The position numbers were made by a program, and so were the translations under genes. Of a DNA stretch of 64,000 bases, positions 6,018 to 54,255 are shown one piece after another. The stretch covers positions 1 to 64,000 of the forward strand of contig NZ_GL883805.1 in assembly GCF_000205165.1 (NCBI RefSeq), in the 5' to 3' direction. Within the stretch, counting starts at the first letter, position 1. Every line of letters begins with the position of its first letter. Source of the DNA: Paraprevotella xylaniphila YIT 11841. Its GTDB lineage: Bacteria; Bacteroidota; Bacteroidia; Bacteroidales; Bacteroidaceae. The notes below the pieces were generated by a model. It had not been told where the DNA came from, searched no databases, and saw only the letters and a list, made by a program, of their open reading frames with translations.

Positions 6018-6032
6018 TTAAATTCACATACA

Positions 6033-6090
6033 TCTTTATAAAGAAGAACTCCGAATGCGATGTTGCATTCGGAGTTCTTCTTTATAAAGA
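6033..6090. terminator. Bidirectional terminator, perfect 26-bp inverted repeat
   Basis: The arms at 6033-6058 and 6065-6090 are perfectly complementary over 26 bp with a 6-nt loop (GATGTT). It sits between two convergent genes, the thioredoxin lipoprotein and glgP, and has A/T-rich flanks on both sides. Confidence 0.85.
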
Positions 6091-6113
6091 TTCTCAATTC
6101 TTACAAATACCTA

Positions 6114-17019: not shown

Positions 17020-19263
17020 TTATTGTTGGAAACGTTTGAATGCGCGCAAATAATGCCTCAAGTCACTGAGCAATTCCTGCGTCTCCTGCAACAGGTTCAG
17101 GTAAACCAAAGACACTTTCAGGCCTTGCGACAAATCCATCTGTATGCGGTCTTCCTGTGCCCGGCGCATCTCGGAAAGCTTTTGCTTGTAAGCTTCTTCC
17201 TCGGCCAACAATGCGTCGATATGCTCATAGTCCTGGTCTTCCACGATACGTTCGCTCCGCATCAGGTAATCCACTATCTTTTTCTTGACTGGCAGAATCT
17301 CCTCTACACACTCTCTCGAAAGCGGATTGAAATTATTGTCCACATGCTCCTTGCAAGGCTCGGACATACGTTTCAGGCAATAAAGCATTTGCTCTCCGCT
17401 GTTGGAAGCCAGGTGGAACCATGTGTTCTTTTCCAAAGAAATCCGCTTGTCTATACGGCGCATGCCTACCAATTCCCTTTGGCGCAGTTTTTTACGACGT
17501 GATTTCTCCGCGTCTATTCGTTTCACGGCACGGCGCAACGTCTTCAGGTCCTCGTCCACGAACCCGTTGACCACATCTTCATATGTCTTCCAAACGAAAT
17601 CCAACATTTCCTGTTGGGTGGCACAAACGTGCTTTTTCAACAAGCCCCAACATTCCGCCTTATCTTTTGCATTCATGATGCCCTTAAAGAGCTGCTCCTC
17701 GTAATCGGCCTCTTCCTTCCGCTTGGTTGAGAAGTTGCTTTTAATCAGGATAAATACGGCAACGAAGACAAACAGGGCCATCACCACTGCACCTCCATAA
17801 TACATGGCAATCGTGACCAATGCACAGGCTGAGAAAGCGATACCGGCCGTGAGGAACCATCCTCCGATGACGTTCAGCACTCCCGTGATGCGGAACACCG
17901 CGCTTTCGCGCGACCATGCGCGGTCCGCCAAAGAGGACCCCATGGCCACGATGAAAGTCACGTAGGTGGTAGAAAGAGGAAGTTTCAACGATGTTCCCAA
18001 CGCTATCAGCAGGCCGGAAAGCACGAGGTTGATAGAAGCACGTACCAAGTCGAATGCCGCCCCCTGGGCCAAAATCGCCTCATCTTTGTTGAAGCGGGCA
18101 TCAATCCACCGCACCAAAGGCTTTGGGGTATATTTGGAAAAGAAGTCGTTCACATTATTCGCCCCTCTCACGATGCTGCGTGCCACGCGTGAAGAACCGA
18201 ACATCTCTTCACCTTCGTCCTGACGCGACAAATCCACGGAGGTCTTCACCACATTATGTGCCTTCTTCGACGTGGCCAAAGCATAGACCATCACCACACC
18301 GGAAAGGAACAGGAAAATAAACGGTGTTTTGGCACTTTCGTTCAGTGAACCCATCATAAAGGTATCGGCCTGCCCGGCACCGTTTGCGGCAAAATCCTGG
18401 TAAGCCGAATAAGCAGCCAACGGCACACCGACGAAATTCACCAAGTCGTTTCCGGCAAAAGCCAAAGCCAAGGCAAAAGTACCCATGAAAATAACAATCT
18501 TGAACACATTGATTTTGCACCAGTGGAACACCTGCATCAAGATGGTGCTTACCACGAAACACCCGCCCACCAGATACATTGTGTTTTCTTTTATCCATGC
18601 GTTATATTCCGGAGTCATGAACGAACTGTCCTTCAATCCTTTCAGCAACGCAAAATAAAGGATACACGTGGTGGCAATCCCCCCGAAAATCCCTATTTTC
18701 CATTTCAACTTGGAAGTATAGTTAAACGTAAATATCAGACGGGACAACCATTGCACTAACGTTCCGAAGATAAAAGCTACAGCCACGGAAAGGAATATGC
18801 CCAAAATGACAGAAAGCGCCTTGTCCGTATTCAACAAATCGTCAAAGCCCAAAAGCCCGGTCTCGTCCGTGGCGATTTTCAACAACGAAAGGATGAACGT
18901 ACCGCCCAACAACTCAAAGACCATAGAGACGGTAGTAGACGTAGGCATGCCCAACGTGTTGAAAACATCCAACAATACCACATCCGTCACCATGACCGCC
19001 AAGAAAATACAAAGCAAGTCGTTGAAACTGAACATCTGCGGTTGGAAAATCCCATGCCGCGCAATGTCCATCATGCCGTTACTCAACGTGGCACCCACAA
19101 ACACACCGATCGACGCGATAATCAAGATGGTGCGAAAGCGTGCGACCTTCGCCCCGATGGCCGAGTTCAGGAAGTTCACGGCATCATTACTCACTCCGAC
19201 CACCAAGTCGAAAATGGCCAACATGAACAGAAACAGGATAAAACTGAAATAAACAATTTCCAT
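17020..19263 (-). CDS. pit: Inorganic phosphate transporter (PiT family) with fused PhoU-like C-terminal domain
   Basis: The 747-residue product has two parts. Residues 1 to about 515 are a multi-helix PiT-family membrane domain with the duplicated signature (GVSNDAVNFLNSAIGAK near the N-terminus, then GNDLVNFVGVPLAAY) typical of Pit/PNP-type phosphate permeases. Residues about 530-747 are soluble, charged, helical and DUF47/PhoU-like, a fusion seen in Bacteroidetes that may sense or gate uptake. It would import phosphate across the inner membrane. It sits between ppk1-ppx and a divergent porin O/P gene, a consistent phosphate context. A -7 box lies at 19298-19305. Confidence 0.93.
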   Translation of the reverse strand: MEIVYFSFILFLFMLAIFDLVVGVSNDAVNFLNSAIGAKVARFRTILIIASIGVFVGATLSNGMMDIARHGIFQPQMFSFNDLLCIFLAVMVTDVVLLDVFNTLGMPTSTTVSMVFELLGGTFILSLLKIATDETGLLGFDDLLNTDKALSVILGIFLSVAVAFIFGTLVQWLSRLIFTFNYTSKLKWKIGIFGGIATTCILYFALLKGLKDSSFMTPEYNAWIKENTMYLVGGCFVVSTILMQVFHWCKINVFKIVIFMGTFALALAFAGNDLVNFVGVPLAAYSAYQDFAANGAGQADTFMMGSLNESAKTPFIFLFLSGVVMVYALATSKKAHNVVKTSVDLSRQDEGEEMFGSSRVARSIVRGANNVNDFFSKYTPKPLVRWIDARFNKDEAILAQGAAFDLVRASINLVLSGLLIALGTSLKLPLSTTYVTFIVAMGSSLADRAWSRESAVFRITGVLNVIGGWFLTAGIAFSACALVTIAMYYGGAVVMALFVFVAVFILIKSNFSTKRKEEADYEEQLFKGIMNAKDKAECWGLLKKHVCATQQEMLDFVWKTYEDVVNGFVDEDLKTLRRAVKRIDAEKSRRKKLRQRELVGMRRIDKRISLEKNTWFHLASNSGEQMLYCLKRMSEPCKEHVDNNFNPLSRECVEEILPVKKKIVDYLMRSERIVEDQDYEHIDALLAEEEAYKQKLSEMRRAQEDRIQMDLSQGLKVSLVYLNLLQETQELLSDLRHYLRAFKRFQQ

Positions 19264-19305: not shown

Positions 19306-19430
19306 CGGACGTGAAATGTAAGGAGTGTGTCATTCGTGTTAAGATTGTGTTACAATCTGGCAGGAATCACTTTGCATTTATTTATAGTATTGAAAAAGAG
19401 ATATTTGAATCTCATAAAAAAATCTCAGCA

Positions 19431-19491
19431 CAAACGAAAATCAATCTCAGCCAAACGATTTTTCATTCGGCTGAGATTGATTTTTCGTTTG
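19431..19491. repeat. Palindromic intergenic element R1 (22-nt period family)
   Basis: The left arm 19431-19452 and right arm 19469-19491 are complementary over 22 bp with a single bulged base. The element divides into 22-nt steps: 19431 CAAACGAAAATC, 19453 AAACGATTTTTC and 19475 GATTGATTTTTC each begin a unit. The last unit ends GTTTGGCGCA at 19496. It lies between the Pit and porin O/P promoters and shares its core with elements at 35675 and 52658. It contains no gene. The rest of the 335-nt gap 19264-19598 holds only the two promoters. Confidence 0.75.
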
Positions 19492-19567
19492 GCGCACAAA
19501 ATCCGGCACATTTCAGGAGGGAGACGAAAAAAGCTGTTGTCCCGGAATATTATAAGTATTTTTGAGT

Positions 19568-19598: not shown

Positions 19599-20702
19599 AT
19601 GAAAAAGGCATTTCTCTTTATGGCCGGTGCCTGGATGGCATGGGCATGCCATGCCGAAGGGAACAAAGGCAAATGGTGGCAGGAAATCAAACAAAACACG
19701 ACATTCGGCGGTTACGTCATCGGAAAGGCCGCATTCAACGACCAGGAATTGGACAATAAGAACGAATCGCACTCCACGTTCGACATCCGCCTCATCCGGG
19801 CATACGTCAACGGCAAAGTCTGGGACTTCAAATACGGGCTTCAGATGGAAATGAACGGCGTATCCGGAAGCAGTGCGGAAAAAGGCCCCCGCGTGGTGGA
19901 TGCCTGGGCGGAATGGGAAAAATATTCTTTCATCAAAGTAAAGTTCGGACAGTTCAAGCGTGGCTTCACTTTCGAGAATCCCATGAACCCTTGGGATATA
20001 GGTTTCGGGGCATATTCACAAGCAACCGACAAGTTGGCCGGGATGAACGACCGTGTAGGGGAACATTCCAGTAACGGACGCGACTTGGGGCTTCAAGTGC
20101 AAGGCGATTTGTTCAAATCACAAAAAGACGGACATGCTTGGTTACACTACCAAATAGGCGCATACAACGGCCAAGGTATCAACCACGCCGACCGCAATGA
20201 CAACAAAGACCTCATCGGCGGGCTTTGGCTCTCACCCGTAAAAGACTTGTGCATCGGCGCTTTCGGATGGACTGGGGAATACAGCAAAGACATCAACGGC
20301 AAGAAAATCACCGTGGACCGCAACCGTATGGCTTTCGGCGTGAAATACGAATCGCGTTGGACCGTTCGCGGAGAATACGTAACCAGCCAAGGACACAAGA
20401 TTTCGGATTACCACGTGGCTGACGAAGGGACGACGGGCGTCAGCGGAAAGGACAAGGCGGACGGTTGGTATGCCACAGTGGGCGCCCCCGTCACCTCAAG
20501 GTGCAAAATATACGGCAAATGGGATGTCTATCGTGACCAGAAGGACAATGCAAGCCGGAAAAGCATCTACAACGTGGCCGTGAACTACTATTTCTATAAA
20601 AACCTGAAGATACAGGCTCTGTACGGTTTCGTAGAAGACAAGGCATACGCCGGAGACCGACATTACAACACCGGAGAAATCCAGTTGTACTGGCGTTTCT
20701 AA
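19599..20702 (+). CDS. Polyphosphate-selective porin O/P family outer-membrane protein
   Basis: The 367-residue product has a signal peptide (MKKAFLFMAGAWMAWACHAEG) and then a porin barrel with alternating aromatic strands. The features FDIRLIRAYVNGKVWDFKYG, VKFGQFKRGFTFENP and a terminal Phe (LYWRF) are those of the OprO/OprP family, which favour phosphate or pyrophosphate. It is divergent from the Pit gene, so outer-membrane and inner-membrane phosphate uptake are encoded side by side. Substrate is inferred from family and neighbours. Confidence 0.9.
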   Translation: MKKAFLFMAGAWMAWACHAEGNKGKWWQEIKQNTTFGGYVIGKAAFNDQELDNKNESHSTFDIRLIRAYVNGKVWDFKYGLQMEMNGVSGSSAEKGPRVVDAWAEWEKYSFIKVKFGQFKRGFTFENPMNPWDIGFGAYSQATDKLAGMNDRVGEHSSNGRDLGLQVQGDLFKSQKDGHAWLHYQIGAYNGQGINHADRNDNKDLIGGLWLSPVKDLCIGAFGWTGEYSKDINGKKITVDRNRMAFGVKYESRWTVRGEYVTSQGHKISDYHVADEGTTGVSGKDKADGWYATVGAPVTSRCKIYGKWDVYRDQKDNASRKSIYNVAVNYYFYKNLKIQALYGFVEDKAYAGDRHYNTGEIQLYWRF

Positions 20703-34150: not shown

Positions 34151-34800
34151 AACCATTCCTAATTAAAGTATGCGGCATGCGCGACGCGGACAACATCCGC
34201 CAAGTGGAAGCCCTCACGCCGGACATGATGGGGTTCATCTGCTGGGAGGGCTCCCGCCGCCACGTAAGCCGCCTCCCCGATTATCTGCCGGAGACTTGCC
34301 GTCGCGTAGGCGTTTTCGTCAACCCTGAAATCGGGTATATACAGGAACGGATAAAAACCTTCCGCCTCGACCTCGTGCAACTGCACGGGCATGAGACACC
34401 GGAGTTCTGCCGAAGCATAAAAGAAGAGGGGCTGAAATCCGGCCATTCCCTGCAAATCATCAAAGCCTTCGGCGTGGCTCCCGACGAACCGTTCCCGCGT
34501 ACCGAAGATTACGAAGCGGATTGCGACTTTTTCCTTTTCGACACGCGTTGCCCCACGGCCGGCGGCAGCGGCCGGACGTTCGACTGGAATGTCCTGCAAA
34601 ACTACCACGGACATACGCCCTTCTTCCTGAGCGGGGGCATCGGCCCGGACAGTACGGACCGTCTTCGCAGCTTTTCACACCCCGCATGGGCGGGCGTGGA
34701 CTTAAACTCACGTTTTGAAACGGCCACGGCCCAGAAAGACGTAGGCCGCCTTTCCGATTTCATCAAAGATTTACGTGGACAAAATATATCAGAGAACTAA
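34147..34800 (+). CDS. trpF: Phosphoribosylanthranilate isomerase
   Basis: From the ATG at 34147 the product is 217 residues. Landmarks are the catalytic Cys in IKVCGMRDADNI, VGVFVNPE, VQLHGHE and SGGIGPDS, followed by GVDLNSRFE. It isomerises PRA to CdRP between the TrpD and TrpC steps. The start overlaps the trpC stop; an in-frame extension to 34000 lies inside trpC and was rejected. Confidence 0.94.
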   Translation: MKPFLIKVCGMRDADNIRQVEALTPDMMGFICWEGSRRHVSRLPDYLPETCRRVGVFVNPEIGYIQERIKTFRLDLVQLHGHETPEFCRSIKEEGLKSGHSLQIIKAFGVAPDEPFPRTEDYEADCDFFLFDTRCPTAGGSGRTFDWNVLQNYHGHTPFFLSGGIGPDSTDRLRSFSHPAWAGVDLNSRFETATAQKDVGRLSDFIKDLRGQNISEN

Positions 34801-34813
34801 AATACAATATATC

Positions 34814-35587
34814 ATGAACAGAATCAACAAACTATTCAACGAGAAGAAACAGAACATCCTTTCCCTGTATTTCTGTGCCGGACACCCGACGGCAGGAACT
34901 ACGGCAAACATCATCCGCACATTGGCCGCACGAGGCATAGACATGCTGGAAATCGGCATCCCTTTCAGCGACCCGATGGCCGACGGCCCCGTCATCCAAG
35001 ACGCTGCCACGAAAGCCTTGCGAAACGGCATGAGCCTGCACCGCCTCTTCGAAGAGCTGAAAGACATCCGGCAAGACGTGGAAATCCCCTTGATACTGAT
35101 GGGATACCTCAACCCCATCTTCCATTATGGTTTCGAAGCCTTTTGCCAAAGCTGTGCAGACTGCGGGATAGACGGGGTCATCATCCCCGACCTCCCCTTC
35201 CGGGACTATATGGAAACATTCAAACCCATAGCCGACCGCCACGGGCTGAAAATCATCATGCTCATCACGCCGGAAACCAGCGAAGAGCGTATCCGTCTCA
35301 TCGACCGGCACACGGACGGTTTTATCTACATGGTATCGTCGGCTGCCACTACCGGTGCACAAAAAGAGTTCGACCGCACCAAACAGGCCTACTTCGACCG
35401 TGTAAACCAAATGGGACTGACCCATCCGCGCATGATCGGCTTCGGCATCAGCAACCGGCAAACTTTGGAATCTGCCCAAAAGCATGCCGCCGGTGCCATC
35501 ATCGGCAGCCGGTTCGTCACCCTGCTCGACCAATACGGCTCGGCCACGGAAGCCCTGGACCGTCTACGTGAAGAACTAAAAAAATAA
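34814..35587 (+). CDS. trpA: Tryptophan synthase alpha chain
   Basis: TrpA releases indole from indoleglycerol phosphate for TrpB. From the ATG at 34814 the product is 257 residues, with LEIGIPFSDPMADGPVIQ (catalytic Glu), GVIIPDLPF (catalytic Asp), YMVSSAATTG and IIGSRFV. It is the last gene of the second trp unit; trpB is at the head of the first, so the two subunits are now under separate transcripts. An intrinsic terminator follows at 35742-35764. Confidence 0.95.
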   Translation: MNRINKLFNEKKQNILSLYFCAGHPTAGTTANIIRTLAARGIDMLEIGIPFSDPMADGPVIQDAATKALRNGMSLHRLFEELKDIRQDVEIPLILMGYLNPIFHYGFEAFCQSCADCGIDGVIIPDLPFRDYMETFKPIADRHGLKIIMLITPETSEERIRLIDRHTDGFIYMVSSAATTGAQKEFDRTKQAYFDRVNQMGLTHPRMIGFGISNRQTLESAQKHAAGAIIGSRFVTLLDQYGSATEALDRLREELKK

Positions 35588-35674
35588 AGACAATATGGTT
35601 TGGTCTCCATTTTGCCGGTTATATTTTCATAACTTACTGTTAAACAATATTATACACCATTCATCAATGTAACC

Positions 35675-35740
35675 AATCAATCTGCGCCAAACGGAAAATC
35701 AGTTGCCTGAGATTGATTTTCCGTTTGGCGCAGATTGATT
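35675..35740. repeat. Palindromic intergenic element R2 (22-nt period family)
   Basis: Left arm 35675-35701 and right arm 35714-35740 are perfectly complementary over 27 bp with a 12-nt loop. Direct 22-nt steps are visible: GATTGATTTT at 35711 and again at 35733; the preceding step begins AAACGGAAAATC at 35689. The core is shared with R1 and R3. It sits between trpA and its terminator. Confidence 0.8.
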
Positions 35741-35741
35741 T

Positions 35742-35764
35742 TGCCGGTTTCTCCGGCACTTTTT
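35742..35764 (+). terminator. Intrinsic terminator of the trpDCFA unit
   Basis: TGCCGG (35742-35747) pairs with CCGGCA (35753-35758), 5-nt loop, followed by CTTTTT. Confidence 0.8.
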
Positions 35765-35832: not shown

Positions 35833-37494
35833 ATGGAATGGATTGACAGTTTGTTTTTCGAGCATAGCGCCATACAGGCCATTGTGGTGTTGTCATTGGT
35901 TACGGCCGCCGGGTTGTGGTTGGGCAAGATGCACGTGTGGGGAATATCCTTGGGAGTCACTTTTGTATTCTTCGTTGGCATTCTGGCCGGGCACCTCGGC
36001 ATTTCACTGGATGCCGACATGCTCAACTATGCCGAAAGTTTCGGGCTCGTGCTTTTCGTCTATGCCTTAGGATTGCAGGTAGGTCCCGGTTTCTTCAGTT
36101 CCTTGTTGCACGGAGGAATCAAACTGAACCTATTGAGCCTCGGAGTAATCTTCATCGGAACGGCCATGACCGTACTTCTAAGCTATGGCCTGTCTATTCC
36201 CTTGCCGGACATGGTGGGCGTCCTGTGCGGAGCCACCACGAATACACCGGCACTCGGGGCGGCCCAACAGACCTTGAAGCAGATGGGAGAGCCATCCAGC
36301 AGCGCAGCCTTAGGGGCGGCCGTGGCTTATCCGCTCGGTGTCGTGGGAGTCATCCTTGCCATTCTGGTCATCCGGAAAATACTTGCCCGTCCGGCGGACA
36401 TGGAAGAAAAAGAGACGGAAGACCACAACCATCCGTACATTGCCGCGTTCCAGTTGCATAATCCGGGCATTTACCATAAGACCATCAAGGATTTGGCCCT
36501 ACACAGCCATACGAAATTCGTCATCTCCCGCCTGTGGAGAGACGGAAAAGTAACTATCCCGACCGGCAGCACGGAGCTTTTGGAGAACGACCGTATTCTG
36601 GTCGTAACGACGGAAAAAGACATGCCGACCCTAACCCTGTTGTTCGGCGAACAGGAAAACCGGGATTGGAATCAGGAAGATATAGACTGGAACAGCATAG
36701 ACCGTAACTTAGTGTCGGAACACATCGTAGTGACCCAAGCTGAAATCAACGGCAAGCGTTTGGGTTCATTGCACCTGCGCAACACTTACGACATCAACAT
36801 CAGCCGCGTGTTGCGTAGCGGCGTACAAATTCTGGCCACTCCCGACCTCATCCTGCAATTAGGCGACCGGCTGACGGTGGTGGGCGAAAAAACGGCCATC
36901 AAGCGCGTGGCCGGCATATTGGGCAACTCCGTCACCACACTGCGCGAACCCAATCTGGCCGCCATTTTCATCGGCATCGTGCTGGGATTGATGTTGGGTT
37001 CCGTGCCGCTCAGCATGCCGGGCATCAGCAGTCCGGTAAAGATGGGGTTGGCAGGCGGCCCTATTATCGTGGGAATATTGGTAGGCTGTTTCGGCCCGCG
37101 CCTGCACATGCGCATTTATACGACCCGCAGTGCCAACCTGATGTTGCGCGGCATAGGGCTGTCCCTCTATCTGGCCGGTATTGGCATTGATGCGGGTGCC
37201 CATTTCTTCGAGACCGTCGTCCGTCCGGAAGGAGCGATATGGATTGGTTCCGGATTTCTTATCACCGTGGTACCGGTGCTGCTGATGGCAGTGGTAGCCA
37301 TGCGGATGTGCGGGATGAATTTCGGTTCCACTTGCGGCATGTTGTGCGGCAGCATGGCCAACCCCATGGCTTTGAATTACGTGAACGACAGTTTTCCCGG
37401 CAACGACGCTTCCGTCAGTTACGCCACGGTTTATCCGTTGGGTATGTTCATGCGTGTGGTAATCAGTCAGGTGGTACTGATGTTGTTCTTATAA
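35833..37494 (+). CDS. AspT/YidE/YbjL-type antiporter with RCK_C domains
   Basis: A 553-residue inner-membrane protein. N-terminal (1-185) and C-terminal (375-553) membrane halves carry the YidE/YbjL duplication motif (VVGVLCGATTNTPALGAAQ, mirrored by FGSTCGMLCGSMANPMALNY). Between them are two RCK_C/TrkA_C ligand-binding domains (about 190-275 and 285-370). The family includes the aspartate:alanine antiporter AspT; bacterial YidE-type members have unknown substrates. It follows the trp operon terminator and has no obvious partner gene. Confidence 0.88.
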   Translation: MEWIDSLFFEHSAIQAIVVLSLVTAAGLWLGKMHVWGISLGVTFVFFVGILAGHLGISLDADMLNYAESFGLVLFVYALGLQVGPGFFSSLLHGGIKLNLLSLGVIFIGTAMTVLLSYGLSIPLPDMVGVLCGATTNTPALGAAQQTLKQMGEPSSSAALGAAVAYPLGVVGVILAILVIRKILARPADMEEKETEDHNHPYIAAFQLHNPGIYHKTIKDLALHSHTKFVISRLWRDGKVTIPTGSTELLENDRILVVTTEKDMPTLTLLFGEQENRDWNQEDIDWNSIDRNLVSEHIVVTQAEINGKRLGSLHLRNTYDINISRVLRSGVQILATPDLILQLGDRLTVVGEKTAIKRVAGILGNSVTTLREPNLAAIFIGIVLGLMLGSVPLSMPGISSPVKMGLAGGPIIVGILVGCFGPRLHMRIYTTRSANLMLRGIGLSLYLAGIGIDAGAHFFETVVRPEGAIWIGSGFLITVVPVLLMAVVAMRMCGMNFGSTCGMLCGSMANPMALNYVNDSFPGNDASVSYATVYPLGMFMRVVISQVVLMLFL

Positions 37495-51176: not shown

Positions 51177-52547
51177 ATGAAAATTTATAGTTTTGAAACT
51201 ATCACATCCATTGAAGATGTCCGGCAAATACCGTCGTACGTCCCTTTAGGGGAGCAAGTGGTTCTCATCCCTCCGTCTTTCCCATGGATTAAAGACCAGA
51301 TGCAAGACATCGCCATTTCCCTGTATAATTTCGACTTGGGAAAAATCCCGTCCCTGATTGACGGGCTGAAAACAAAAACAGCCGAGTTTATTTCGCGGCT
51401 TGCAGATGCCCCCGAAGGCTGCCCTGCCACAAGCTCAGTCATAGAAAACCTTTTCCAAACCCTCCATTCGTTCGTCAACCGTCCGTTAAACCAAATTAAG
51501 GACAAAGAGCTTCTCTCTTTCACCGAACGTCTTTCAGGTCTCATCATCTATTCTTACTTTAAACACCTGAAAGTGAATGTGTCCCTCTTAGACCCTTCAC
51601 TTTTCGTTTGTATCGGTAGCAATTCAAAGATAGACACCGAAAAAAGTGCCGAATGCCTCCGGACACTCATACAGGACCAAGACGCAACCGTCAGCATTCT
51701 CCCGGCTCGTATCTGCAAGAACGGCCTCGAAGAGACGATATTGATGCCCGCAAAGCTCCGTACGCTTTATGCGACCCACATCGCGACCTTGTTCCATGCC
51801 GAGGAACTTACATTTTATACCACGAAACAAATGTCTTCGGCTTCACCCGACGAAGACGTATGCAGTCAGTTCAAAGACTATACCATCACATATAACGAAG
51901 CCAAAAGCATCATCAATGCCGGTTTCAACCTCGTTCCGAAAGCTTGTCTGGATTTAGCCGGACAACACGGAATCAACCTACGTATATCCAATTATTATAA
52001 TCCCAATAAACAAACAATCACTATTACAAAAACATCAACCATGAACCAGATTAAAGCAGTTGTTACACGGAAAAATGCAGATTATTTACAGATCCATTCA
52101 TCAGGAAACCTCATGCCGTTCCAATTCCTGACCAAAGTGATGGCCGTCTGTGGGGACTTCAAGACTCCTATACACCTCATTTCCTCTTCCAGTGTCAATA
52201 TCTCCATGGCCGTGGAACTGAGTTCCGAGACTTTCCACCAAATGGAAAACCAACTGTCCCAATTCGCTTCCGTCAGTGTGGAAAAAGACATTTCCGTCAT
52301 CCATATCATCGGCCAGTTCGACCAGGAAAAGGAAAACGTGGAAGTCAAAGTCATCGACCTGCTTAAAGACATCCCCATCCTGATGATTTCATACGGAAGC
52401 GACAACAACAGCGTGTCTGTTGTCGTGAGCAAAGACATGGGCGAAAAAGCACAGGCCATCTTGATGGACAATTTCGCCGGACAAGATTTCATGAAAAGAA
52501 ACGTCGCTCCGCGCTTCCGCGAAGCTTATAGTGCCATGAGCATCTGA
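51177..52547 (+). CDS. Aspartokinase-like protein with ACT domains, apparently non-catalytic
   Basis: The 456-residue product resembles bacterial aspartokinases in its middle (YNEAKSIINAGFNLVPKACLDLAGQHGINLRISN, compare the LxxxGxxVLHPRAL segment) and in a C-terminal region with tandem ACT-like domains (about 285-355 and 370-440, with SSSSVNISMAVE where aspartokinase has ISTSxxSIS). It lacks the KFGGTS motif at the N-terminus and most of the kinase catalytic residues, so catalysis looks lost. It could be a ligand-sensing regulator. It is divergent from kdp and convergent with the sigma-54 regulator. Confidence 0.7.
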   Translation: MKIYSFETITSIEDVRQIPSYVPLGEQVVLIPPSFPWIKDQMQDIAISLYNFDLGKIPSLIDGLKTKTAEFISRLADAPEGCPATSSVIENLFQTLHSFVNRPLNQIKDKELLSFTERLSGLIIYSYFKHLKVNVSLLDPSLFVCIGSNSKIDTEKSAECLRTLIQDQDATVSILPARICKNGLEETILMPAKLRTLYATHIATLFHAEELTFYTTKQMSSASPDEDVCSQFKDYTITYNEAKSIINAGFNLVPKACLDLAGQHGINLRISNYYNPNKQTITITKTSTMNQIKAVVTRKNADYLQIHSSGNLMPFQFLTKVMAVCGDFKTPIHLISSSSVNISMAVELSSETFHQMENQLSQFASVSVEKDISVIHIIGQFDQEKENVEVKVIDLLKDIPILMISYGSDNNSVSVVVSKDMGEKAQAILMDNFAGQDFMKRNVAPRFREAYSAMSI

Positions 52548-52640: not shown

Positions 52641-52657
52641 ATTCGTAAATCACCTTG

Positions 52658-52725
52658 CGCAGAACTGAAAATCATTCTCAAGAGATTGATTTTTCGTTCT
52701 CCTGAGAATGATTTTCAGTTCTGCG
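52658..52725. repeat. Palindromic intergenic element R3 (22-nt period family)
   Basis: The arms at 52658-52680 and 52703-52725 are perfectly complementary over 23 bp with a 22-nt loop. Three direct steps 22 nt apart begin with GATTGATTTTTC at 52684, GAATGATTTTC at 52706 and AATTGATT at 52728. Core sequence and period match R1 and R2. The rest of the 358-nt gap 52548-52905 holds the hairpin above and no gene. Confidence 0.75.
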
Positions 52726-52905
52726 GTAATTGATTCCACAAGATTTCCATCCGAAATCTTACGTTCGCAGAGAAGAATTTAACAAACTGATATAAAACAC
52801 CTTACGTTCTATGCCGCATGTCATGAAAACGAATATTCCGACAGGTACGAAGTGCCGTTACATCAACAATAAAGAAATAAGACAAAAAAAGAGGCGTGAA
52901 GCCTC

Positions 52906-54255
52906 TTAGATATTAATACCGTACTCTTCTATCTTCCGATAGAGAGTGGTCAATCCTATTTTCAGGAGACGGGCCGCCTCAGCCTTATTTCCTTTCGTGT
53001 ACTGCAATACACGTTGGATATGGCGATGCTCCGCCTCTGCCAGTTCAAAATCGTCACCGTCGGCAGCCGATCCGGATAAAGTGGACGACCGGAAATCAAG
53101 AGGCATGTCATCCAACGTGATATAGTCGTCGCAGATAATCAACGCACGCTCTATCACGTTACGCAACTCACGCACGTTTCCCGGCCAGGCATACGACTGC
53201 ATCCAATCCTGACAGGCTGCATCAAAGCCCTTGACTTGTTTCCCCATCTTGGCAGAAAATAGTTTTAGGAAAGCTGTGGCCAACTCCGGTATATCCTCCC
53301 TACGCTCGCGCAAGGGCGGCAAATGGAGATGGAAAACGGACAAACGGAAATACAAATCTTCCCGGAAATTGCTATTTTCTATTTCTTCTTTCAGGTTGCG
53401 GTTGGTGGCCGACACGATACGCACGTCTATTTTCGTGGGTTTCGTATCCCCCACCTTTATATATTCCCCTGTTTCGAGCACGCGCAAGAGTTTGGCTTGC
53501 AAACCGTACGCCATCTCCCCAATCTCGTCCAGAAATATCGTGCCGTGGTTGGCCTCTTCAAACAGTCCTTTCTTGTCCTTCAAAGCCCCGGTGAAAGCCC
53601 CGGCCTTGTGACCGAATATCTCGCTTTCCAACAATTCTTTGCTGAAAGCGGAACAGTTGATGGCCACGAACGGCTGCTTGGCACGCGCGCTCCCGTGATG
53701 AATGGCCTGCGCGAACACCTCTTTACCCGTCCCCGTTTCGCCCGTAAGCAACACCGGCACATCCGTCACGGCCACTTTACGAGCCAACCGTATCACTTGC
53801 TGTAAACCTCGCGAATGTCCCAAGACGGTATCGAAGGCCGATTCACGGACCGGCACGACAGCACTTCCCGAAGGCTGCACCGGCCGTCTGTTGATTTTCT
53901 CCATGGCACGGCTGATTATCGGTATGATCTTATTGTTGTCATCCCCTTTGGTAATGTAGTCGAATGCACCGTTTTTGATAGCCTGCACCCCGTCCGGGAT
54001 ATTCCCGTGCGCCGTCAGGAGGATGACCTCGGCCTCGGGTTGCAGTTCTTTTATCTCCTTTACCATCTCCACCCCGTTGCCATCGGGCAGAAACACATCG
54101 CACAATACCAGTTGCGGCATTTTGGCCGTGAGTTGCTTCATGCCCGAGGCCCGGTCGGCCGCCTGAAACACCTCATAACCTTCCAATTCCATCATACGTG
54201 CCAACAATTTCCGTATGATGGGTTCGTCATCTATAATCAGTATCGTATTCATCAT
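52906..54255 (-). CDS. NtrC-family sigma-54-dependent response regulator
   Basis: A 449-residue protein: receiver domain with phospho-acceptor Asp53 (LVLCDVFLPDGNG), AAA+ domain with Walker A GETGTGKE (about 174-181) and the sigma-54 contact loop GAFTGA (about 226-231), then a Fis-type helix-turn-helix (GNKAEAARLLKIGLTTLYRKI). It activates sigma-54 promoters after phosphorylation. With no OmpR-type KdpE in the window, and kinase and kdp genes close by, it is a candidate partner of the KdpD/kinase pair. A -7 box lies at 54312-54319 (complement). Confidence 0.92.
   Translation of the reverse strand: MMNTILIIDDEPIIRKLLARMMELEGYEVFQAADRASGMKQLTAKMPQLVLCDVFLPDGNGVEMVKEIKELQPEAEVILLTAHGNIPDGVQAIKNGAFDYITKGDDNNKIIPIISRAMEKINRRPVQPSGSAVVPVRESAFDTVLGHSRGLQQVIRLARKVAVTDVPVLLTGETGTGKEVFAQAIHHGSARAKQPFVAINCSAFSKELLESEIFGHKAGAFTGALKDKKGLFEEANHGTIFLDEIGEMAYGLQAKLLRVLETGEYIKVGDTKPTKIDVRIVSATNRNLKEEIENSNFREDLYFRLSVFHLHLPPLRERREDIPELATAFLKLFSAKMGKQVKGFDAACQDWMQSYAWPGNVRELRNVIERALIICDDYITLDDMPLDFRSSTLSGSAADGDDFELAEAEHRHIQRVLQYTKGNKAEAARLLKIGLTTLYRKIEEYGINI

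Follow-up and report, generated by a model that had tools for sequence, protein, structure and literature searches.

Results

Three phased arrays in the window

The window, a 64,000-nt stretch of the Paraprevotella xylaniphila YIT 11841 genome (NZ_GL883805.1; genome G000, 3.79 Mb in 87 contigs), contains three palindromic arrays, R1, R2, and R3, none of which is assigned a strand. R2 occupies positions 35672-35743 between trpA (34775-35587, plus strand) and a permease-like gene (35833-37494, plus strand) and is comprised of dyads at 35678-35693, 35700-35715, and 35722-35737. R1 (19420-19501) is positioned between a PHO4 transporter gene (17020-19263, minus strand) and a porin-like gene (19599-20702, plus strand), with dyads at 19442-19457, 19464-19479, and 19486-19501, a degenerate outer dyad at 19420-19435, and A/T spacers between them. 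R3 (52645-52738), with dyads at 52651-52666, 52673-52688, 52695-52710, and 52717-52732, lies between two convergent genes (51177-52547, plus strand; 52906-54255, minus strand). The initial annotation had described the three as sharing a core, inverted arms, and a 22-nt step, a combination it considered unlike a plain terminator, and the present data bear this out. The core GAGATTGATTTT(T/C)CGTT is found exactly at 19473 in R1, 35709 in R2, and 52682 in R3. The arms of R2 (35675-35701 and 35714-35740) form the perfect 27-bp inverted repeat that had been reported, the perfect 23-bp repeat of R3 is part of longer 38-nt arms matching at 87% (52648-52685 and 52698-52735), and the 22-bp repeat of R1 was recovered as 22-nt arms at 91%. 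Comparison with 200 shuffles gave DNA folding energy z values of -11.0, -7.4, and -9.2 for R2, R1, and R3, respectively. The 12-mer proposed as a search word is not enriched within the window, where 17 matches with at most two mismatches were found and 22.4 were expected.

R2, the array that was scanned for this property, passes a loose intrinsic-terminator scan (GC stem followed by a T run). A second terminator-like hairpin, distinct from R2, is located directly 3' of it (35742-35758, plus strand; GCCGG...CCGGC and then a T run in the consensus scan), so that trpA does not have to rely on R2 for its termination. At the gathering score no Rfam family matches the arrays, and the window as a whole gives a single Rfam match, a TPP riboswitch (RF00059) at 500-598 on the plus strand. 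At 6032-6091 there is also an inverted repeat with perfect 27-bp arms and a loop of 6 nt, whose letters are unrelated to those of the R family.

The repeating unit and its grammar

Search of the whole P. xylaniphila genome with the 17-mer, allowing three mismatches, resulted in 204 matches compared with 6 for the reversed control, and the whole-unit pattern, allowing two mismatches, gave 325 places compared with none. The initial annotation had staked its family on further copies in the genome, and their absence is clearly refuted. The unit is a quasi-palindromic 16-bp dyad of two 8-nt half-sites (consensus CRWTYKSM.KSMRAWYG) followed by a 6-nt A/T spacer, mostly AAAAAT, ATTTTT, GAAAAT, or ATTTTC, and the phased dyads make up arrays of 60-110 bp. 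Thus the 22-nt period first noticed holds, and the repeat unit described along with it was incomplete. We examined 73 arrays, taken from three long contig stretches and from 60 further loci picked for their array content. At least two units were detected in 66 of the 73, and in all 66 the distance between units is a whole multiple of 22. The number of places and the exact register refute ordinary terminators or chance palindromes, an explanation that accounts for hairpins near gene ends and to which we give virtually no probability. The 175 units draw on a small vocabulary including CAATCTCA, CGTTTGGC, CGTTCTGC, and CAATCTGC. A CRISPR array was ruled out, since half-sites and spacers come mostly from a small common vocabulary and are not identical repeats with unique spacers.

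The two half-sites of a dyad are unlike. When half-sites are classed by their inner three letters as P (GGC, GCC, TCC) or Q (TGC, TCA, TAA, GCA, ACA), 228 of 245 classified dyads are mixed, 16 are QQ, and 1 is PP, a count that is partly by construction as the classes were set post hoc. A comparison that needs no class assignment gives no perfect 16-bp palindrome among 271 dyads, as against about 4% in permutations. Complementarity of adjacent half-sites is below chance, and perfect complementarity is commoner between half-sites three apart (11% and 14% versus 4% and 6%). Perfect arms of at least 19 bp are present in 18 of 72 P. xylaniphila arrays; over 100 draws of random strings built from the units of these arrays, the number averaged 2.1 and never exceeded 6. 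The corresponding excess in genome G008 is not significant (z = 1.3, n = 26).

Ten P. xylaniphila arrays lie in the middle of an element of about 365 bp, which has inverted arms of about 85 bp built of CATCTTTCAG / CTGAAAGATG repeats (L055:3597-4057, L057:13213-13650, L093:137-580, L098:2347-2780, L106:2388-2830, L130:2329-2780, L146:2271-2730, L147:2328-2790, L122:2240-2700, and, on the minus strand, L143:2240-2730). One arm pattern of this element has four matches in Paraprevotella clara and none in P. xylaniphila when the exact pattern is used. Among the best 45 of 3412 flank alignments, only members of this element align well past the array length, and no recent empty site from which a target-site duplication could be read was found.

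Placement relative to genes

Gene neighbors were taken from a crude ORF caller, and a placement bias is claimed for P. xylaniphila only. Nine of its 73 arrays overlap a called ORF, in keeping with the dispersed, mostly intergenic family that had been proposed; by a similar caller, 14 of 26 arrays of G008 lie in gaps. The 60 arrays with two called neighbors and no ORF overlap were compared with a baseline of 122 gaps of at least 100 nt. Convergent gaps hold 21 of the 60 arrays versus 18 of the 122 baseline gaps (p = 0.0035), and divergent gaps hold 7 of the 60 versus 32 of the 122 (p = 0.034). In the co-directional gaps (n = 32) the upstream stop is nearer than the downstream start, with medians of 105 and 202 nt (p = 0.0014).

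This placement is what would be expected of REP/BIME-like hairpins at the 3' ends of genes, with either an RNA role (mRNA stability, two-way termination) or a role as gyrase sites that relieve supercoiling at gene ends. REPs are mostly found between unidirectional and convergent genes, according to PMC3733652, and the extragenic position, the many copies, and the 3'-end placement by which REP/BIME sequences are generally recognized were all found in P. xylaniphila, by crude ORF calls. The excess of long perfect arms and the passage of R2 through the terminator-like scan are consistent with such hairpins as well. Against an RNA role, the sense strand folds only weakly more stably than the antisense strand (mean -1.6 kcal/mol, p = 0.098, n = 32), a trend beyond which the earlier suggestion of small RNAs finds no support, and a separate hairpin stands 3' of R2. 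Hairpins of this kind also predict neither an exclusion over kilobases nor a 22-bp period common to unrelated sequences, both of which are described below, and we regard them as a distinctly unlikely explanation.

Two narrower forms were ruled out. The GTAG/CGTC tags of the REP super-families are rarer in the arrays (3 of 73) than in control windows (28 of 73), and the Y1 transposase (PF01797, RAYT) that would accompany REPs was matched in none of P. xylaniphila, P. clara, and the congener G015; among the 18 genomes of the genus one has a match, as do 5 of 14 control genomes.

Spacing along the chromosome

The arrays keep apart along the chromosome, which is a new observation. On contiguous stretches of P. 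xylaniphila, 31 intervals have a mean of 28.6 kb, a minimum of 11.4 kb, and values of up to 76 kb; in P. clara YIT 11840 (G013), 17 intervals have a mean of 18.6 kb and a minimum of 10.5 kb; and in G008, 24 intervals have a mean of 9.2 kb, a minimum of 3.6 kb, and a coefficient of variation of 0.30 compared with 0.87 under the null. Lone matches with three or more mismatches in the two Paraprevotella species were not counted as arrays, one P. clara array outside the pattern was excluded, and the values for these two species are not independent because sites are common by descent. Under a null that places an equal number of arrays in non-divergent gaps of at least 80 nt, weighted by length (20,000 draws), the probabilities for P. 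xylaniphila, P. clara, and G008 are 0.00005, 0.00005, and 0.0008 for the minimum interval and 0.0035, 0.021, and 0.00005 for the coefficient of variation, with no draw matching the P. xylaniphila minimum and none as regular as G008. A dead zone followed by an exponential, which has one more parameter, fits better than a plain exponential in all three genomes (P. xylaniphila, log likelihood -333.4 versus -349.1).

G041 belongs to another genus and has a 3.7-Mb genome in one contig. Its 40 arrays have a minimum interval of 6.2 kb, compared with a median of 0.5 kb under a uniform null (P = 0.0001). This analysis omits the weak isolated matches at 118929, 393361-393404, 399008, and 786368 and merges 792207 with 792435, and the minimum becomes about 4 kb when the omitted matches are restored. 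In the densest part of the distribution, 617-930 kb, the coefficient of variation is 0.70. Two dyad arrays with other letters also keep their distance, one in G041 at about 1026.9 kb between neighbors at 1013.9 and 1037.3 kb, and a G001-like one in contig C1 of G008 at 58.1 kb between neighbors at 52.5 and 67.2 kb, the latter inside a called ORF. A AATTGACA-type direct repeat with a lag of 22 is situated only 0.44 kb from the G041 dyad array at 1013.9 kb, indicating that some repeats with this lag do not stay apart. The exclusion is therefore observed within one array family, and its extension between families is weakened.

AATTGACAATTG direct repeats are found about 0.4 kb from two G041 dyad arrays (L285:13429 and L280 near 9675) and may represent a second type of repeat accompanying them. 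Some long array-free intervals of P. xylaniphila (C83; L048, L049, L051) coincide with low-GC or variable loci, in which the 20 proteins looked at include SMC-like ATPases, a helicase with a PLD domain, and HipA, as well as a polysaccharide export locus.

A dead zone of this kind could also be produced by a MITE- or REP-like mobile palindrome that multiplies lineage by lineage while staying away from its existing copies, comparable with the target immunity of Mu, Tn7, and Tn3. On this reading a transposase would bind the dyads, and immunity would reach over the dead zone of about 10 kb. According to PMC7350765, the in vivo immunity of Mu peaks around 5 kb and falls off from 5 to 25 kb, a range of kilobases as here. 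The better fit of the dead-zone model, the high copy number and lineage specificity of the families, and the ten arrays inside the element of about 365 bp all agree with such an element, and it is strengthened by the unrelated cluster near the G041 array, which a family-specific exclusion would allow. The two other-letter dyad arrays that keep their distance are less easily accommodated, as are the lack of a Y1 transposase in P. xylaniphila, P. clara, and G015 and the lack of an exact match in viral contigs (two array patterns) or plasmids (R2 region). Together with the comparison of sister species given below, these points lead us to place a self-avoiding mobile element on the unlikely side. 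The Mu-type C-terminal domain (PF09299) was unmatched in all genomes searched, including the controls, which makes that search uninformative.

One period in other letters

The P. xylaniphila unit pattern was searched, with at most one mismatch, in 301 genomes of the family Bacteroidaceae (GTDB). It occurs in more than two places only in P. xylaniphila (239 places), P. clara (281), and G015 (48; control 1). The other 298 genomes include 34 with one or two places, 37 in total, as compared with 10 places in 9 genomes for the reversed control.

The period extends beyond the letters. When repeated 7-mers in gaps were analyzed, a lag of 22 was best or tied for best in P. xylaniphila, P. clara, G006, G002, and G008, and was not best in G010, G001, G017, and G016. 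Clusters in gaps, scored at each lag from 16 to 31 with an identity threshold of 64%, number 19, 16, 13, and 5 at lag 22 in P. xylaniphila, P. clara, G008, and G002, respectively, with at most two at any other lag; G001 has one at 22, G006 one at 21 and one at 22, and G010 one at 22 and two at 23, and no lag-22 cluster was found in 40 kb each of G017 and G016. G055, represented by 1,424 bases, was left out. In other genera, four genomes sampled over 40-60 kb each yielded a total of eight lag clusters, six of them at lag 22 (two in G022, three in G041, one in G046, and none in G019).

The letters are specific to lineages. The G008 pattern GTACTYKSCGSMRAGTAC has 568 places in its own genome, 20 in G001, and at most three in each of the other 16 genomes of the genus; a strict pattern for G002 had no match in 18 genomes, being too strict. 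The G041 dyad GTRCSGACRYGTCSGYAC has 111 places versus 5 in the control; there are 6 (control 6) and 3 (control 2) places in two congeners of G041, 9 in P. xylaniphila, and 4 in G008 (control 2 each). All 100 of the 111 G041 places that were listed (69 exact, 20 with one mismatch, and 11 with two) fall within C1:10072-1260933, one third of the chromosome, and are densest at about 617-930 kb; the eleven further places outside this set have two mismatches. A regional restriction of this kind is consistent with a spreading mobile element. No description of such 22-bp dyad arrays was found in a literature search of partial coverage.

By eye, an inner core (approximately TSC.GSA) is common to several congeners whose outer letters differ. 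Species dialects of this type would also be expected of marks resembling DNA uptake signals, which accumulate through biased uptake and recombination (molecular drive). According to PMC7811141, biased uptake spreads such marks fairly evenly and leaves them scarce in segments that were acquired recently. The organization of the arrays, as phased dyads over 60-110 bp, speaks against an origin of this sort, which we consider very unlikely. Uptake signals are single short motifs.

Sites in related genomes

Orthologous gaps were compared between P. xylaniphila and P. clara. Where both flanking genes are conserved, an array is present in both species in 8 gaps, in one only in none, and in neither in 82; R2 is outside these 90 comparable gaps. 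From the P. clara side, 9 of 9 orthologous sites covered by P. xylaniphila data hold an array, part of those data having been fetched around arrays, and 13 of the 22 P. clara arrays had no corresponding data. The presence/absence differences between close relatives that characterize MITEs and transposons are thus absent from the comparable gaps of these two species, and the empty sites that the initial annotation had proposed to look for in close strains were not seen in this set. Over ten aligned pairs, in which both arrays were found by the pattern, identity is 0.900 for arrays (800 nt) and 0.837 for noncoding flanks (2423 nt). Substitutions affect 3 of 136 fixed unit positions and 77 of 664 degenerate positions, compared with about 16% in noncoding flanks; 49 of the 80 array substitutions remain inside the two-letter alphabet, and in some pairs a whole 22-nt unit has been gained or lost. 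The low change at fixed positions and the matching gaps indicate that the letters are constrained and the sites stable at this distance, neither of which favors a mobile element.

More distant species carry other array families. Among conserved-flank gaps compared with P. xylaniphila, G008 has 1 array present only in P. xylaniphila, 1 only in G008, and 15 gaps with neither; G010 has 1 in both, 1 only in G010, and 13 with neither; and G002 has 2 only in P. xylaniphila and 11 with neither, in a test that used lags 22 and 23 and missed the 21-bp inverted repeat of G002 at the R2 gap. All gaps scored in G006 (8), G001 (16), G016 (9), and G017 (5) have an array in neither. Sixteen loci of G015 were considered, 5 of which match contiguous P. 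xylaniphila data, one (57% identity) being unused; two of the four usable loci have an array in apparently the same gap and two do not.

The gene trpA was found in 15 of the 18 genomes of the genus, and the R2-gap relatives carry different arrays or none. Inspection by eye of the DNA downstream of trpA shows an array of the same family with different letters and 30-bp arms in G015, tandem 22/23-nt units (GTTTCAGAGCCTGAAAC / AGTTTCAGAGCCTGAAACACCC) in G010 (L177) at the site that R2 has in the window, a perfect 21-bp inverted repeat in the letters of its own family in G002, and GCGA..GGTCGC dyads of about 22 nt ahead of an apparently different gene in G006. The gap in G008 is about 80 nt and has no array, and no such array was seen by eye downstream of trpA in G001, G003, G004, G005, G009, G011, G016, and G017. 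In P. clara, the 1.5 kb after trpA are different DNA with none of four family core words, and 3.3 kb beyond there is a match to the family. At the R1 gap, a G008-type array adjoins the orthologous porin gene; the left flank is not syntenic, so this gap was left unscored.

Discussion

The arrays share a 22-bp register, dyads that are never perfect palindromes, a mostly intergenic placement in P. xylaniphila, and a kilobase spacing, and their fixed letters are constrained between sister species and different in related ones. We tentatively explain them as phased, sequence-specific binding sites, read at the DNA level by a putative chromosome-organizing protein, which develops the initial proposal of a target for a nucleoid or recombination protein. 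A phase common to unrelated letters, together with the lack of perfect dyad palindromes, points to a bound complex of fixed geometry that recognizes two unlike half-sites. A two-part protein that requires both half-sites would occupy each dyad of 16-18 bp, and the 22-bp step, about two turns of DNA, would place neighboring complexes on one face of the helix, where they could join up. The array would act as DNA, and its putative reader would work along the chromosome, in nucleoid organization or DNA topology. The spacing suggests an effect that reaches over kilobases. If a single cluster were sufficient for several kilobases of the chromosome or more, a second one nearby would not be kept or not be made. 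Copying or conversion might homogenize the vocabulary of each lineage, and a drift in the specificity of the protein might lead to its replacement.

Several observations stand against binding arrays. The excess of whole-array palindromes (18 of 72 versus 2.1) is not predicted by a plain operator array, no binding protein was identified, and R2 has no counterpart within 1.5 kb of trpA in P. clara. Intervals of up to 76 kb indicate that no maximum spacing is required in P. xylaniphila, and an exclusion that demands no particular density would equally suit a self-avoiding mobile element. The tail of the P. xylaniphila intervals, the regional restriction in G041, and the unrelated repeat close to a G041 array keep such an element in consideration, just as the gene-end placement and the long arms leave room for a REP-like RNA or gyrase role. 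Of the REP/MITE-like repeat first suggested, the gene-end placement has held up, whereas the GTAG/CGTC tags, a RAYT, and one-sided arrays are wanting. With binding arrays as the provisional choice, the arrays may be seen as landmarks in a family of gut bacteria that inherit their geometry and not their letters, being 22-bp-phased intergenic dyads that lie kilobases apart, are stable between sister species, and use a vocabulary specific to a lineage or region.

Extragenic palindromes are an old puzzle whose function is not agreed. The 22-bp phase in unrelated sequences and the exclusion over several to ten kilobases can both be measured, and any explanation has to account for them. Together they suggest that gut bacteria have some means of gauging distance along the chromosome. 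Should the arrays be read by a protein, they would be a bacterial architectural element in which reader and sites co-evolve quickly and would offer a handle on nucleoid organization in Bacteroidota. Should they be the product of a mobile element, its self-avoiding spread would be extreme.

The literature on known relatives, including PMC2817692, allows the arrays to be set beside several systems. Like REP/BIME sequences, including BIME-2 of Escherichia coli, they are short extragenic palindromes in over a hundred places per genome, are mosaics of alternating units, lie near 3' ends, and are scarce at divergent promoters; they differ in the rarity of GTAG/CGTC tags, the absence of RAYT, the exact 22-bp phase in unrelated sequences, and the mutual exclusion over kilobases. 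The uptake sequences of Haemophilus (USS) and Neisseria (DUS) have a similarly even distribution and species dialects, with a single short motif in place of dyad arrays. MuA and TnsB sites are 22 bp, and the target-immune transposons Mu and Tn7 thus resemble the arrays in having repeated sites of similar size, as well as in their exclusion over kilobases, which the arrays display; unlike for these transposons, no transposase was found here, and no site is one-sided in sister-species gaps. The arrays share with matS and other macrodomain sites and with gyrase-bound BIME-2 the many dispersed sites and, in G041, the regional restriction. In contrast to matS sites, which are single and conserved in relatives, the letters of the arrays differ between species while the period stays.
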